NCBI RefSeq assembly: GCF_000172155.1
Contig: NZ_ABIZ01000001.1
Location: forward strand, 2,823,105 to 2,887,104
Length of the DNA stretch: 64,000 bases
Direction of reading: 5' to 3'
Source of the DNA: Verrucomicrobium spinosum DSM 4136 = JCM 18804
Lineage (GTDB): Bacteria; Verrucomicrobiota; Verrucomicrobiia; Verrucomicrobiales; Verrucomicrobiaceae
The notes beneath the pieces are model-generated. The model was not told the origin of the DNA. It made no database searches and was given only the letters and a program-made list of their open reading frames with translations. Shown here in pieces: positions 255-22,453 of this stretch; within the stretch, counting starts at the first letter, position 1; every line of letters starts with the position of its first letter. The translations under genes and the position numbers were made by a program.

Positions 255-2774
255 TCACTCCCGCGTGATCGTCTCGTCCAGATTCAATAAGAGCTGGCAC
301 AGGGCGGTCCACGCGGCGTGTTCGATTTCAGGAAGGCTCTTGTCGCGTGGGGACTCTCCCACGGCCAGCAGTTTTGCGGCATCTGCAGGGGTTTCCTGAA
401 ACTGCGTGCGCAGGTAGTCCAGTCGTCCCAGTAGGATGTCAAACTCCTCCGCTGTCGGCGCTCGCGCGGTTGCCCACTGGAAGGCGAGGCCTAGTTTGAC
501 GCGGTCGTCAGGAGGTGCCGGGGCCTGGAGTACCCTCTGCGCCATGGCCCGGGCGGCCTCTACGTAGGTGATGTCGTTCAGAGTGGTTAGAGCATGCAGG
601 GGCGTGTTGGTCCGGAGAGATCTCACATCACAGGTCTGCCTCGCGGCATTGTCGAAGAACATCGTAGGTCCGACGATGCGCCGCCAGAAGATATAGAGAC
701 TGCGCCGGTAGAGGGCATCGCCATGATCCTGCTTGTAGCTGATCTTGCCAAATGTGGCCTCCTCCCAGATGCCCTCTGGCTGGTAAGGGCGAACTGGCGG
801 ACCTCCCTGGGTTTCAGTGAGCAGCCCGGCCGCAAAGAGGGCCTGATCGCGGATCATCCAGGAGGGGAGCCGATGCCGTGAGGCGCGGGCCAGGAGGCGG
901 TTCTCGGGATCCCGCTCCTGCAACTCCGGCGTGACGCGGGAGGACTGCCGGTAGGTGCGGCTCATCACGATCTGTTTGCAGAGTGCCTTCACATCCCAGC
1001 CCGATTCGATGAAATCGACGGCCAGCCAGTCCAGCAACTCCGGGTGGGAGGGCTTGGCTCCCTGAACGCCAAAGTCCTCTGTGGACTTCACCAGGCCCAC
1101 GCCGAAGAAGCTCTGCCAGAAACGGTTCACTGTGACCCGGGCGGTGAGGGGATGGTCTGGGGAGACGAGCCATTTTGCCAGATCCAGCCGGGTGGGGCCG
1201 GTGCCTCCGGAGGTGAGCAGAGCAGGGAGGATGGCGGGGGTGCCCGCCTGGACCTGGTCGGTGGGTTTATCGTACGCGCCTTTTGCCAGGATGGAGGTCT
1301 GCCGGGGCTGCGCCAGCGTGTCCATGATCATCACCTTGGTCACGCCATTGGCGGCGGCGGTCCGTTCCCGGTTCGCGGAAAGGAGCTTCTCCAGTGCCTT
1401 CACATACTCCGGATCGGAGCCTTCATTTTTGAAGTGAGCCACCGCTTCGAGCAGGCCGTCCACGCCGCGTTTGACCGGGGGCACCTTCGCCAGCGTGGCG
1501 GGAAGATTCCCGGGCAGCTTGGCGGCATCGGTCTCGAGAAGCGGTGCGCCTTCAGCCCGGGGGAATTTCCTGAGCTCATGGGCCTCCACCTCCGCCGCAA
1601 CGGCAGAGACCCGAGCCTCCGCCTTCTTCACCCGTTCCAGCTCGGCGGGGGTGGACATGTCCATAGCTGGCGCGGCCTTGCCACCGCGGATCGCTCCATC
1701 CTCGGAGGTCTGATTGAAGAAGTCGTAGAGTGCGTAGTACTCCCGCTGGGTGAGGGGATCGAACTTGTGGTCGTGGCATTTCGCGCAGGCCAGAGTCAGC
1801 CCCAGCCAGACAGTGGCTGTAGTGTCCACGCGATCCATCACATTCTCCACCCGGGTCTCCTCTGGGATGCGGCCGCCTTCGCCATTCATCATATGATTCC
1901 GGTGGAACCCGGTGGCCAGCTTCTGCTCCGGGCTGGCCCCAGGCAACAAATCGCCCGCCATCTGCCAGACGGTGAACTGGTCGTACGGCATGTTGGCATT
2001 GAAGGCCTGCACCACCCAGTCCCTCCAGGGCCACATGGTGCGTTCGGGATCGCCCTGATAGCCATTGCTGTCCGCATACCGTGCCGCATCCATCCAGTCC
2101 CAGGCCATGCGCTCGCCAAACCGGGGCGACTTCAGCAGACGGTCCACCACACGCTCATAAGCTTGGGGGGAGGCGTTGGCGAGGTAGGCGGTCAATTCCT
2201 CTGTTGTGGGAGGCAGACCCGTGAGATCCAGCGTCACCCGGCGAATCAGGGTCTCCCTGCTGGCTTGAGTGCTGAGGGCAAGGTTCTCTCGTTTCAGTCG
2301 GTCGATGACGAAGGCATCAATGGTGTTTCCATAGGTAATGTCGGGGGGCAGCACAGGGACGGTAGCCTTCACGGGCTTCACAAAGGCCCAGTGCTTGCCC
2401 CAGGGGGCACCTTCCTCCACCCAGCGCTTCAGCAGGTCCTTCTGGGCCGTGGTGAGCTTCCGATTGCTCTTGGGCGTGGGCATGACCTCCTCAGGATCGT
2501 TGGAAAAGATCCGCTGGATCGCGGTGCTCTGACTGCTGTCGCCAGGGCGGATCGCAATGTGCCCATCCACCAGGGCCTTGGCGGCGGCTTCCTCGTCCAG
2601 TCGCAGGCCTCCCTTACGCTCTGCCTTGTCCGGCCCGTGGCAGTGGTAGCAGTTCTCCGAGAGGATTGGCTGGATGTCCCGGTTGAAGTCCAGGGGTGCC
2701 GCCGCCCACGATGAGGCGGCCGCGCAGAGCAGGGCTGGAATCAGGACGGGGTGGGGCTTGCGGAATCCAGGCAT
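255..2774 (-). CDS. DUF1549/DUF1553 planctomycete-type cytochrome protein
   Basis: 839 residues. A signal peptide (about residues 1-25) is followed by a PSCyt1-type cytochrome c domain with the heme motif CYHCH at residues 42-46, a DUF1549 domain (about 150-355, containing a second CAKCH motif) and a C-terminal DUF1553 domain (about 545-800, with TARVTVNRFW). This architecture is typical of Planctomycetes and Verrucomicrobia, where large paralogous sets are found; the enzymatic role is not established, but an extracytoplasmic redox function is usually inferred. Such genes are often followed by a DUF1501 gene; none is present here, so this copy stands alone. The ATG at 2774 gives a complete signal peptide. 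Confidence 0.93.
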   Translation of the reverse strand: MPGFRKPHPVLIPALLCAAASSWAAAPLDFNRDIQPILSENCYHCHGPDKAERKGGLRLDEEAAAKALVDGHIAIRPGDSSQSTAIQRIFSNDPEEVMPTPKSNRKLTTAQKDLLKRWVEEGAPWGKHWAFVKPVKATVPVLPPDITYGNTIDAFVIDRLKRENLALSTQASRETLIRRVTLDLTGLPPTTEELTAYLANASPQAYERVVDRLLKSPRFGERMAWDWMDAARYADSNGYQGDPERTMWPWRDWVVQAFNANMPYDQFTVWQMAGDLLPGASPEQKLATGFHRNHMMNGEGGRIPEETRVENVMDRVDTTATVWLGLTLACAKCHDHKFDPLTQREYYALYDFFNQTSEDGAIRGGKAAPAMDMSTPAELERVKKAEARVSAVAAEVEAHELRKFPRAEGAPLLETDAAKLPGNLPATLAKVPPVKRGVDGLLEAVAHFKNEGSDPEYVKALEKLLSANRERTAAANGVTKVMIMDTLAQPRQTSILAKGAYDKPTDQVQAGTPAILPALLTSGGTGPTRLDLAKWLVSPDHPLTARVTVNRFWQSFFGVGLVKSTEDFGVQGAKPSHPELLDWLAVDFIESGWDVKALCKQIVMSRTYRQSSRVTPELQERDPENRLLARASRHRLPSWMIRDQALFAAGLLTETQGGPPVRPYQPEGIWEEATFGKISYKQDHGDALYRRSLYIFWRRIVGPTMFFDNAARQTCDVRSLRTNTPLHALTTLNDITYVEAARAMAQRVLQAPAPPDDRVKLGLAFQWATARAPTAEEFDILLGRLDYLRTQFQETPADAAKLLAVGESPRDKSLPEIEHAAWTALCQLLLNLDETITRE

Positions 2775-2929
2775 AGTGAAGATGTCGGAAGCGTGCGGCG
2801 CTGGGGGCCAGCATGATGAGGAGCAACGGGATGTGGAAGGGTATTGTTGCGTGGGCTCCCAGGGAACTCCATGCCTGCCATGACCGGATTGCTGGAAAAT
2901 GTCGTCAGCTGAGCTAGGGTAGGGACTCT

Positions 2930-3829
2930 GTGAGCCCGTCCGTCCCCGATCTTCCCATCGCCCTGCCTCCCGTCGAGGATGCGGCAGGGGTGCGACAGAT
3001 CGTGGTGACTAGAGAGGTGTGGGAGGCCAAGACCCGACAGCATCGGGCCCGGGTCGCAGATCACGCTGAGGCTTTTGTCCAGCGGCGGAGCCAAAATGCG
3101 AAACACCCGGTGTGGGACTTCCTCTTCACCTACTACAGCTTCTCGCCGAACAAGCTCATGACCTGGGTGCCTGGATTTGCAGGTGGGTGTGTGTCTGCGG
3201 AGGGAGCCGAGACCGTGACTTGGGATGCTCCGCCGATGCCAGCCCGCGTGCAGCGCGAGGCCCGGTGGGTGGCTCAGCTCTGCCAGAACATCACGTCCCG
3301 CCCCGCCAGGTTTGCCTGCCATGGTCTGCACGAGTGGGCCATGGTGTACAAGCAGAGCGCTGAACAGGTGCGCCACTCGGGGTATGACCTCCGATTGTCA
3401 TCCGAGGAACTGGCGGCCTTTGTCGAAAGCCAGACGGTGTGTTGCACCCATTTCGACGCCTACCGTTTTTACACGCCGGAAGCCCGGCCGCTCAACACCT
3501 TCAATCCTACCTTCGAAACGCGGCAGGAAATGGAGCAGGGGGGCTGCCTCCATGCGAACATGGATCTCTATAAATGGGCCTACAAGCTCTGGCCTTGGAT
3601 CGGCAGCGATCTGGTGGCCGATGCCTTTGAGGTGGCGCTCATGGGCCGGGCCATGGACATGCGAGCCAGTCCTTATCAGTTGGCTGATCTGGGCTTCGAA
3701 CCTATCCGGATCGAAACCGAATCCGGTCGCGCTGATTATCGCGCCGCTCAGCAGAATCTTGCCAATGCCGCCCAGGCCGTCCGGTCGAAATTGGGCATGG
3801 CTGCCCAGGCACTTGCTGATTTGACCTAA
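2930..3829 (+). CDS. conserved protein of the family annotated as 3-methyladenine DNA glycosylase
   Basis: 299 residues from a GTG start. I recognise conserved blocks of a family found in Actinobacteria and Verrucomicrobia: KHPVWDFLFTYYSF near the N-terminus, CHGLHEWAMVYKQ in the middle, CTHFDAYRFYTPEARPLN, then CLHANMDLYKWAYKL. Databases usually name it 3-methyladenine DNA glycosylase, but it does not resemble the AlkA, Tag or AAG enzymes and I see no helix-hairpin-helix motif, so that name is weakly founded. The many conserved His, Cys and Asp residues would suit a metal-dependent enzyme. It is transcribed divergently from the DUF1549/1553 gene. Confidence 0.8.
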   Translation: MSPSVPDLPIALPPVEDAAGVRQIVVTREVWEAKTRQHRARVADHAEAFVQRRSQNAKHPVWDFLFTYYSFSPNKLMTWVPGFAGGCVSAEGAETVTWDAPPMPARVQREARWVAQLCQNITSRPARFACHGLHEWAMVYKQSAEQVRHSGYDLRLSSEELAAFVESQTVCCTHFDAYRFYTPEARPLNTFNPTFETRQEMEQGGCLHANMDLYKWAYKLWPWIGSDLVADAFEVALMGRAMDMRASPYQLADLGFEPIRIETESGRADYRAAQQNLANAAQAVRSKLGMAAQALADLT

Positions 3830-19050: not shown

Positions 19051-19211
19051 ATCTTCGCAACTGAGGGGGGCAGATAAGTCCTCAAACCGGAACAAAACAG
19101 GTCCGGCATTCCAATCGGTATTTCCTAGAATCCCGGGTTCCTGCTTTGCCTTCGTGCGCGGGGGAGAAATTTTCTGAAGCGCAGTTTCCGGGTTGTCGGC
19201 GAATAACCGAC

Positions 19212-19940
19212 ATGCAACCTCACACTGATCTCCCCCGGGCAAGTCACGTCCCGGTCATTCCGGAACGGATGACCTCGCTGGATCTCATGTGTTGCCGGCA
19301 GGTGACAGAGCTCCCCGCTGGTCCTGACTGGATCTATGAGATGAAGTTGCGGGGTTTCAGAGTCACGGCCTTGAAATCAGCAGAGGAGGCGTGGCTGGTT
19401 TCCCGGAACCACTTGTCCTTGGGGGAGCAGTTTCCGGAGATCATCAAGGCGTTGCAGGCTCTTCCTTGCGACCAGGCGCTGGTGGATGGTCAGTTGGTGG
19501 CCTTGGATGAGTCTGGTTGCGTGTGTGGTTGCCCGGTTGAGATGTCGGGCAGAGGGCAGCGTCCGGCGGCGGTTGGCCTGGTGGTGTTTGATCTGCTGGA
19601 ACTGGATGGCCGCTACATGCAGGGCCTCCCACTGGGCGTAAGGAAACAACGCATGTCGGCCCTGCTCGCTGGCGCGCCCCAGGGCGTGGTTGCCGCAGTT
19701 GACCTCGCGGGCACCCCTCAGGATCTTCTGGAGCAGGCCAGGATGGCTGGGCAGCCGGGTATCGTCGCCAAACGTCGGGACTCCACCTATGAGGAGGGGC
19801 GCCGTACGATGGAGTGGCTGAAATGTCTGGTCCCCGCCGAGGCGGGCCAGGCAAGGAGCGGATTCATCACCCATTTCTGTGTTGGTCAGGTGAAGGATGT
19901 GATGCCGCTGAAAGATGAATCCGTGCGCCGCGCGGCCTGA
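19212..19940 (+). CDS. degenerate LigD-like ATP-dependent DNA ligase adenylation domain
   Basis: 242 residues from ATG 19212. The order of motifs follows the adenylation domain of LigD-type ligases: GPDWIYEMKLRGFR (motif I region, residues 38-50), SRNHLSLGEQFPEI, VDGQLVALDESG, VVFDLLELDG and GIVAKRRDSTYEEGRR (motif IV). The motif I lysine (K45) is kept, but the expected aspartate after it is R47, the acidic residue of DGE is Q94, and the motif IV glutamate is missing (PG instead of EG). There is no OB-fold and no polymerase or nuclease domain. The protein is probably not an active ligase; it may be a decaying paralogue or a repurposed nucleotide- or DNA-binding protein. Confidence 0.72.
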   Translation: MQPHTDLPRASHVPVIPERMTSLDLMCCRQVTELPAGPDWIYEMKLRGFRVTALKSAEEAWLVSRNHLSLGEQFPEIIKALQALPCDQALVDGQLVALDESGCVCGCPVEMSGRGQRPAAVGLVVFDLLELDGRYMQGLPLGVRKQRMSALLAGAPQGVVAAVDLAGTPQDLLEQARMAGQPGIVAKRRDSTYEEGRRTMEWLKCLVPAEAGQARSGFITHFCVGQVKDVMPLKDESVRRAA

Positions 19941-20236: not shown

Positions 20237-20491
20237 ATGATCTCATCCAAGCAACCATCCGTGGAACAACTTAAGAAGGCGGTCGCAATCGCCGAGAAAA
20301 TCAAAGAACTCGAAACCCAGCTCTCCGAGTTGCTCGGTGGCGGAGCTCCTGCTCCCGTCGTTGCCCGTGGTCGCAAGCCCAAGGCAGTCAAGGTTGAAAG
20401 CGGTCGGAAGGCCCGCAACATCTCCCCTGAAGGTCGCGCTCGCATCGCAGCTGCGCAGAAGGCCCGCTGGGCCAAGGCCAGAAAGGGCTGA
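20237..20491 (+). CDS. small basic coiled-coil protein, unknown
   Basis: 84 residues. The N-terminal half (KAVAIAEKIKELETQLSELL) is a short amphipathic coiled coil. The C-terminal half is basic and ends in SPEGRARIAAAQKARWAKAR, a motif I associate with many small proteins of Verrucomicrobia and Planctomycetes. The charge pattern suggests nucleic-acid binding, but that is inference. The upstream 200 bp are AT-rich and could hold the promoter; a strong hairpin follows. Confidence 0.72.
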   Translation: MISSKQPSVEQLKKAVAIAEKIKELETQLSELLGGGAPAPVVARGRKPKAVKVESGRKARNISPEGRARIAAAQKARWAKARKG

Positions 20492-21481: not shown

Positions 21482-22453
21482 ATGTCGCAGCGACTTTACA
21501 AGGCAGTGGTTGGCGGGCTCGATCCGGTCTTGACCGGAAGTGGGGAAATGTCTGCACGCTGGACCGCCGAGTTGCTCCTTTCTCTGGACTGGTGCCGCAT
21601 TGTGGAGCTGGCACGGGCGATGGCCCTTTTCGGCGGATTTGAGCTAGGCTCTACGACCGTGCGAATGGATGGCGCGGCGGACTTTACCATGACGCGCGGC
21701 AAGGGTGCGCACGCGCGGCGTTACCGTGTGCGGCTGGCGGAGTGGAACCAGTGGCAGGCGACGGTGGCCGGTGTGGAGGAGTTCGCCCAGACGCTCAAGA
21801 AGGAGAAGCACCGCAATACCCGCGGTGTGTTGCTGGCCCCGGGTGGCTTTTCGGCCTCTGCCCTCCACCTTGCGAGGCAGCGCCAGATCGAGACCGTGGA
21901 TGCCGATGTACTCGCGGCCCGGCTCAATGAGCTGCCGGAGACGCACAGCGTCTTCTTTTATGAAACTGGAACCCTGGGGGACTATGGCAGTCCCACGTGT
22001 CCCGCCTGCATGAAGCGCATGGAACTCCTGCCGGAGCCTCGGCCGCAAACGCCGGGTCGGGTTTCCGCCCTCCCGGACCTCAGCTATCGCACGAGTGACA
22101 TCGTGGCCGAAGTGGTGGCCGCCCGGAGAATCGAAATCCACCGCAACTGCGAAGTGTATTTCCTTCGTGAGGTGCATGCGCGGGACGTGATCGTCCACGG
22201 GCACGCGGTGGGCAACTTTGTGTGCGATGGGTGTTTGCTCCTCAATCCAGGCAGCGTGGCCGAGGGCACCGTCGCCGCCCGCTCGGTGATGGTCCGGCCT
22301 GGGGCAGTGTTGAACGGTGAGGCCCGCATCCTGCAGGGCGCACCCGAATCCCTTGCCCAGGAATCCCCTTCCTTGACTTGGCGCTGCGCCAACCGGTCAC
22401 CCAATGCCAAGCTGCGTGCGAAGTGCGAGCAGGTGATGTTTAGGATGCATTGA
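21482..22453 (+). CDS. fusion of an Mrr-type nuclease fold with a bactofilin domain
   Basis: 323 residues. Residues ~35-150 follow the Mrr restriction endonuclease-like fold: DGAADF (D67) for the catalytic aspartate strand, RVRLAEW (82-88) where active enzymes read V-Q-C-K-R-W, and GVLLAPGGFSASALHLA then IETVDADVLAARLNEL for the final strands and helices. The lysine of the Q-x-K motif is absent, so cleavage activity is doubtful. A CPAC knuckle (173-176) follows. Residues ~215-285 (VHARDVIVHGHAVGNFVC, GTVAARSVMVRPGAVLNG) are a short run of bactofilin beta-helix repeats, a polymer-forming cytoskeletal domain. The gene is monocistronic. A DNA-tethering cytoskeletal role is speculation. Confidence 0.7.
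   Translation: MSQRLYKAVVGGLDPVLTGSGEMSARWTAELLLSLDWCRIVELARAMALFGGFELGSTTVRMDGAADFTMTRGKGAHARRYRVRLAEWNQWQATVAGVEEFAQTLKKEKHRNTRGVLLAPGGFSASALHLARQRQIETVDADVLAARLNELPETHSVFFYETGTLGDYGSPTCPACMKRMELLPEPRPQTPGRVSALPDLSYRTSDIVAEVVAARRIEIHRNCEVYFLREVHARDVIVHGHAVGNFVCDGCLLLNPGSVAEGTVAARSVMVRPGAVLNGEARILQGAPESLAQESPSLTWRCANRSPNAKLRAKCEQVMFRMH

Follow-up and report, generated by a model that had tools for sequence, protein, structure and literature searches.

The 323-residue protein encoded by an ATG-start open reading frame at positions 21482–22453 (+) of the window, the 64,000-nucleotide stretch of the Verrucomicrobium spinosum DSM 4136 genome analysed here (2.82–2.89 Mb of an 8,220,857-bp single-contig genome), appears to be a pseudo-Mrr protein whose zinc ribbon is split by a bactofilin domain. 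The order of its parts, as read from the sequence, is a dead Mrr nuclease fold, half a ribbon, the bactofilin and the other half of the ribbon. It is plausible, at a probability of roughly 40%, that this fusion tethers DNA to a bactofilin scaffold, and a role as a protein adaptor is nearly as likely.

The Mrr-type restriction-endonuclease-like domain, which seems catalytically degenerate, spans approximately residues 24–165 (21551–21976, +). In Pfam, residues 34–146 of the window protein matched Mrr_cat (PF04471) with 31.1 bits against a cut-off of 21 (E 2.8e-7), and residues 208–280 matched Bactofilin (PF04519) with 29.7 bits against a cut-off of 27.9 (E 7.7e-7). An AlphaFold2 model built from an alignment of 30 sequences had a mean pLDDT of 85.5 and a pTM of 0.62, with pLDDT below 50 solely at residues 1–23 and 189–192. 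Structural comparison of the model by VIA-align returned AF1548 (Z 12.5, residues 36–162), EndoMS (Z 10.9) and MspJI (Z 10.1, residues 26–166) as matches, and also two bactofilins, the T. thermophilus protein 6rib_A (Z 12.7, rmsd 1.9 over 86 residues, span 196–284) and BacA 2n3d (Z 11.2, rmsd 2.1 over 86 residues, span 196–286). The bactofilin β-helix was accordingly placed between the ribbon halves at approximately residues 196–286 (22067–22339, +), an assignment also supported by the tree described below. An earlier reading of this DNA from the sequence alone (the sequence-only reading) had proposed an Mrr-like fold in the N-terminal part and bactofilin-like repeats at about residues 215–285. 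Both proposals are borne out by Pfam matches above cut-off and by the fold searches, with an Mrr fold and a C-terminal β-helix both present in the predicted structure.

The Mrr fold is followed by a CPAC motif, which had been regarded as a knuckle. The cysteine pair is present as claimed, but alignment indicates that CPAC is no self-contained knuckle: it supplies the first half of a Topoisomerase-I-type C4 zinc ribbon, and W.C...C near the C-terminus supplies the second. The first half consists of C173, C176 and a predicted strand at residues 179–184 (21992–22033, +), and the second of W300, C302 and C315 together with the C-terminal H323 (22373–22450, +); in this four-Cys pattern, CPxC ... 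W.C...C, C176 and C302 are about 125 residues apart. As this second half follows the bactofilin, the bactofilin sits inside the ribbon. C173, C176, W300, C302, C315 and H323 are invariant in all 30 aligned family members. Class-wide searches recovered other proteins in which the same Mrr domain leads to CPxC and then directly to W.C...C, without a bactofilin between them. When 11 fusions were aligned by MAFFT with these intact or insert-free relatives, P171, C173, P174, C176, W300, C302 and C315 were invariant across the insert, and W300, C302 and C315 fell on the second knuckle of the intact ribbons. The predicted strands of the fusion at residues 179–184, 298–302 and 319–321 correspond to strands 154–157, 167–170 and 180–182 of the intact relative L038. 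A simple end-to-end fusion was considered and rejected, because in the alignment the conserved C-terminal W.C...C completes the ribbon begun at CPAC.

Excision of the insert, with cut points picked by eye, raised the score against an HMM of 15 Mrr-ribbon proteins in all 31 fusions, by 3.4 to 14.6 bits; shuffled tails on their own added a mean of 0.3 to 3.2 bits. The spliced score was reached by none of 100 tail shuffles in 11 of the 31 fusions and by at most five in 29, the remaining two being L016 and L023 (12 and 7 of 100, respectively). The window protein gave a weaker result, with 3 of 100 shuffles reaching its score against the full profile and 15 of 100 against a ribbon-only profile. Pfam assigned the intact ribbon of L038 to Zn_ribbon_Top1 (PF01396) with 41.2 bits, above the cut-off of 32, and gave no match to this family for the window protein with E values of up to 10 admitted. 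In the unspliced fusion L175, positions 23–36 (of 39) of the Zn_ribbon_Top1 profile aligned with residues 306–319, past its bactofilin (residues 206–285), with an E of 1.7e-4 and 21.7 bits, under the curated cut-off of 32. Joining the halves of L175 gave an E of 9.7e-6 and 25.7 bits (cut-off 32), through the second half only; joined L176 (E 0.052) and the uninterrupted ribbon of L177 (E 0.16) were likewise sub-cut-off, and joined L079 had no match. Among five joined fusion ribbons searched against Pfam the best match was to DNA_ligase_ZBD (L006, E 0.002, under its cut-off), and the window's own joined ribbon had no Pfam match under E 0.2. Because Pfam alone gives sub-cut-off matches, the case for a split ribbon rests on the alignment, the profile and the structure of the relatives.

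C248, within the bactofilin (22223–22225), and the C-terminal H323 (22448–22450) are both invariant in the 30 aligned members. Of the relatives in other families, L176 has no cysteine at the position of C248, and L079 and L175 are without the histidine.

Nuclease activity has probably been lost in the fusions, as suggested by a residue comparison of 31 fusions, 18 plain Mrr proteins from the relatives' genomes (the 18 best-scoring fetched loci of a PF04471 genome search) and 15 Mrr-zinc-ribbon proteins, a set from which L138 (irregular past the first knuckle) and L144 (truncated) were left out. The lysine of the QxK motif is present in none of the fusions, the glutamine in one and the catalytic aspartate in five; the same alignment columns hold lysine in 12, glutamine in 14 and aspartate in 12 of the 15 Mrr-ribbon relatives. 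All 18 plain Mrr proteins have both lysine and aspartate, with glutamine in 15 and glutamate in 3. The window protein keeps the aspartate, D67 (21680–21682, +), and has lost glutamine and lysine, with R84-L85-A86 (21731–21739, +) where active-type relatives read Q-C-K in the alignments. The sequence-only reading was right about the positions of D67 and of RVRLAEW, the counterpart of the VQCK strand; its assignment of GVLLAPGGFSASALHLA as the final strand does not hold, as AlphaFold2 predicts a strand plus a helix there and a further strand follows at residues 136–139. The old glutamine position is occupied by lysine or arginine in 29 of the 31 fusions (21 K, 8 R), and the QxK site reads G-C-A in L175 and Q-C-A in L079. 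A glutamate in helix 1 is present in 15/15 Mrr-ribbon proteins, 16/18 plain Mrr proteins and 0/31 fusions at the aligned column; this residue carries no weight in the argument, since a glutamate sits one position further along in 27 of 30 fusions. The alignment also reveals a family signature: invariant W37, R39, R45, W88 and W91 in 29/30.

L041, L052 and L059 retain CPxC and lack the catalytic aspartate and lysine, in contrast to L038, L039 and L133, and may represent a second set of dead Mrr proteins in the class. Several Mrr-zinc-ribbon proteins have, by eye, hydrophobic N-terminal segments resembling membrane anchors.

A search of the window's family (f1) for the same fusion showed that the Mrr fold without catalytic residues joined to a bactofilin is a family-wide feature. 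The full-length fusion is present in 55 of 68 genomes; in one other (G344) it is split over two frames, and 12 have none. Of the 47 genomes with a completeness of 90% or more and no more than 5% contamination, 41 contain it. The fusion thus looks dispensable, as six of the 12 genomes without it are of this quality, and remnants with two stops (G031) or a 59-residue frame (G030) indicate that the gene can be lost. An order-wide search of 386 genomes added near-full-length copies in two other families (G054 and G455) together with an incomplete copy, in G378, that lies at the edge of its contig. In a sample of 387 genomes of the phylum, six matched with E values of 1e-25 or below, each of them a member of the window's family. 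Absences in these searches are soft, because few candidates were scored per genome (five at most in the order search) and because the PF04471 genome search missed the window's own gene despite its 31.1 bits in Pfam. Other phyla were covered by a pattern scan that finds close relatives, and absence outside the phylum is not claimed. The nearest named relatives, Verrucomicrobium sp. BvORR034 and BvORR106, encode proteins 93 and 89% identical to that of the window.

Thirty of the 55 full-length fusions were aligned, the window protein included; at E up to 1, Pfam detected Bactofilin in all 30 and Mrr_cat in 29. The gene is under purifying selection, with a whole-gene dN/dS of 0.05–0.10 in three pairwise comparisons among three Verrucomicrobium genomes. 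By part, dN/dS is 0.03–0.04 for the bactofilin, 0.05–0.11 for the Mrr domain and 0.08–0.16 for the tail, the first ribbon half being too short for an estimate. These values, together with the family-wide occurrence of the domains, show that the fusion is not a chance product. A pseudogene or a chance open reading frame is ruled out by the dN/dS within the genus and the conservation across the family.

The origin of the fusion was examined in trees of both domains. In an Mrr-domain tree of 51 domains, 18 of the 31 fusions were used and formed one group (99/96) within a clade that includes Mrr proteins with intact ribbons (98/96); L176 (partial), L178 and L179 are in no tree. A later tree without the plain Mrr proteins placed the fusions and L177 on one side of a branch and the 15 Mrr-ribbon proteins on the other (99/98), and the nesting of the fusions therefore rests on the 51-domain tree. 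In a bactofilin tree of 97 domains, the 31 fusions formed one group (97/67) lying among 33 domains of bac2, a long stand-alone bactofilin of the class; their precise position there is weakly supported (81/40, 82/69), and the alignment had few columns. Against a profile of the fusion bactofilins, bac2 domains scored 47.7–75.4 bits and those of the shorter neighbouring bac3 20.6–32.0 bits. From these sequence comparisons the insert appears most like bac2.

L177 (contig of G392, 2447–3154, +) encodes a dead Mrr domain and a ribbon without interruption, lacks the bactofilin, and groups as sister to the fusion L175 (100/98). The topology holding the fusions apart from L177 was rejected (p-AU 0.02), for a group named after the tree was seen. 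Most simply, the bactofilin would have been inserted once and later lost once, the alternative being two separate insertions. The genome of L175 (G455) is 89% complete with 7% contamination and that of L177 is 85% complete, and either contig could be misassigned. In L177 the loop that joins the two ribbon halves is possibly a scar left by deletion.

Tandem bactofilins, a short bac3 and a long bac2, were seen in 33 of 33 loci picked for a bactofilin match. In the pair of L159 (3202–3753 and 3757–5046, +) the Pfam match is Bactofilin only. In L040 and L058 the pair lies beside a gene read as nadA, and bac2 carries, by eye, CxxC pairs near its N-terminus.

We propose that the two ribbon halves still close over the bactofilin insert, and that the closed ribbon and the dead nuclease fold would form a binding head able to hold chromosomal DNA, perhaps modified or branched, uncut. 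The bactofilin domain would polymerise or co-assemble with the other bactofilins of the cell, and the fusion would tie its ligand to the cytoskeletal scaffold, a single chain doing approximately what a bactofilin and a DNA-associating adaptor do elsewhere. DNA binding is favoured by the relationship to Mrr proteins with a Top1-type ribbon by the basic residue at the old glutamine position (residue 84 in the window protein) and, for the window protein itself, by a basic pI. A linker from DNA to scaffold would have a setting: the Myxococcus bactofilin scaffold BacNOP is described as organising chromosomes via PadC-ParA (PMC5703909), and V. spinosum is reported to have a condensed nucleoid within an internal membrane compartment (PMC2647929).

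The same anatomy could instead serve protein binding, and it is quite possible that the dead nuclease and the ribbon make up an adaptor recruiting a client, such as an envelope or division factor, with no contact to nucleic acid. The loss of catalytic residues and the family signature of tryptophans and arginines are in line with such a role, and the clients described for bactofilins, PbpC (PMC12448750) and LmdC (PMC10945521), are proteins. The whole-protein pI is acidic in 27 of the 31 fusions (4.9–6.3), with a net charge of the Mrr domain between −8 and +1, which speaks for an adaptor and mildly against DNA binding; the window protein is basic (pI 8.8; 8.4–9.0 across it, L004, L005 and L079). 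Charge decides little here, as acidity (pI up to 6.3) is shared by 10 of the 16 Mrr-ribbon relatives measured. Further points against the tether are the sub-cut-off ribbon scores, the genomes without the fusion and the lack of a recognised neighbour with a chromosome or cell-shape function. Against the adaptor, Pfam describes the ribbon family as a DNA-binding C4 zinc finger, and a basic residue occupies the old glutamine position in 29 of 31 fusions.

A more elaborate form of the tether, which we think somewhat unlikely, is that a domesticated restriction enzyme has become a nucleoid-tethering cytoskeletal protein, with polymerisation and DNA grip mechanically coupled or with ribbon halves shared between subunits. 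The coupling would arise because the filament domain lies inside the DNA-gripping ribbon.

All 30 fusions examined have a hydrophobic residue (L, M, I or F) at the position equivalent to BacA F130, which speaks for polymerisation; exchange of F130 for arginine is reported to stop polymer formation by BacA (PMC12448750). It is unlikely, more so than the readings above, that the insert is only a rigid spacer or a small oligomerisation module, giving defined dimers or short oligomers and never entering filaments. Attachment of both its ends to the ribbon could prevent stacking end to end, L177 does without a bactofilin domain altogether, and by eye the alignment has no conserved membrane-targeting-like N-terminus. 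Yet a spacer would not readily account for the retained hydrophobic residue, nor for a dN/dS lower in the bactofilin than in the Mrr domain and the tail. An N-terminal membrane-targeting peptide is common, though not universal, among bactofilins. The window protein begins with MSQRLYK, placing R4 and K7 at the positions of K4 and K7 of BacA, whose N-terminus is described as a membrane-targeting peptide (PMC12448750); this feature occurs only in the three Verrucomicrobium sequences aligned.

The surroundings of the gene were compared across 20 regions, with neighbours read by eye. Of 18 regions outside the genus, only L099 has a neighbour in common with the window, a single gene that is 34% identical and lies about 9 kb away in the window; the other 17 have none. 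A divergent upstream gene, read as MetX-like, is present in at least 8 of the 20 regions, in other genera. No operon partner was recognised in these regions, nor any conserved neighbour hinting at a chromosome or cell-shape function. Very improbable, finally, is a defence component, a sensor of foreign or modified DNA that signals or sequesters at the scaffold: its Mrr relatives are restriction enzymes, and 21 of the 30 members, though not the window protein, match the NACHT-associated inactive restriction endonuclease family PF22722 (NA-iREase1) with E no higher than 1 and 3.1e-5 at best. Yet neither the window protein nor L175 matched any PADLOC family with an E of 0.1 or less, no defence neighbours or island were recognised in the 20 regions (five window neighbours being also run through Pfam), none of 36 pattern-matching stretches in viral contigs encoded a relative, plasmids yielded no full-length relative and one match of 28% identity over residues 15–180, to an annotated restriction endonuclease, and the fusion occurs throughout the genera of the family, whereas defence genes are typically patchy in distribution.

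Two genes upstream of the fusion in the window deserve mention. The frame at 19146–19940 (+) encodes an ATP-dependent DNA ligase domain (PF01068, E 5.4e-19). The motif expected of such ligases is KxDG; here the site seems to read KLRG, and the ligase is possibly degenerate. Between it and the fusion gene, an 84-residue protein with an Ala/Lys/Arg-rich C-terminus (20237–20491, +) matches nothing in Pfam with an E of 0.01 or lower and, among the 20 regions, is present in two congeneric ones only.

Both domains are of known kinds. A search of the open-licence literature, by titles and abstract openings, did not reveal the arrangement seen here, in which a bactofilin is placed within the zinc ribbon of a dead restriction-enzyme fold. 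The evolutionary path is unusually legible, with Mrr-ribbon proteins with and without catalytic residues, the insertion into the ribbon and one insert-free relative. The protein would offer a clear example of the recruitment of a restriction-enzyme fold for another use, and of a large domain tolerated in a tiny metal site. The cargo specificity of bactofilins and their connection to the chromosome are understood in few species, and a natural single-chain fusion of a dead nuclease and a bactofilin makes the question of how scaffold, cargo and chromosome are connected testable with one purified protein. If the domesticated-enzyme form of the tether were true, the protein would be a one-chain DNA-to-bactofilin linker, a kind likewise not found in that literature.

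The insert resembles other bactofilins (PF04519), such as BacA, the T. thermophilus bactofilin and the class's bac2 and bac3, in being a β-helix of about 90 residues, and it groups with bac2; it differs in lying inside another domain of a larger protein and in having no conserved N-terminal membrane-targeting-like peptide. The fusions share the Mrr fold and the CPxC ... W.C...C pattern with Mrr restriction endonucleases that carry a Top1-type ribbon, among which they nest, but they lack the catalytic residues and their ribbon is split by the bactofilin. Like the NACHT-associated proteins of PF22722 they have an inactive restriction-endonuclease fold, which is joined here to a cytoskeletal domain, with no NACHT among the Pfam matches. 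The closest functional counterpart may be the BacNOP-PadC-ParABS system of Myxococcus xanthus, described as a bactofilin scaffold tied to chromosome handling by a DNA-associating adaptor (PMC5703909). This likeness would be one of function only: the adaptor described there is a separate ParB-like protein (PMC5703909), whereas the candidate DNA-binding head of the fusion has another fold and belongs to the same chain as the bactofilin.
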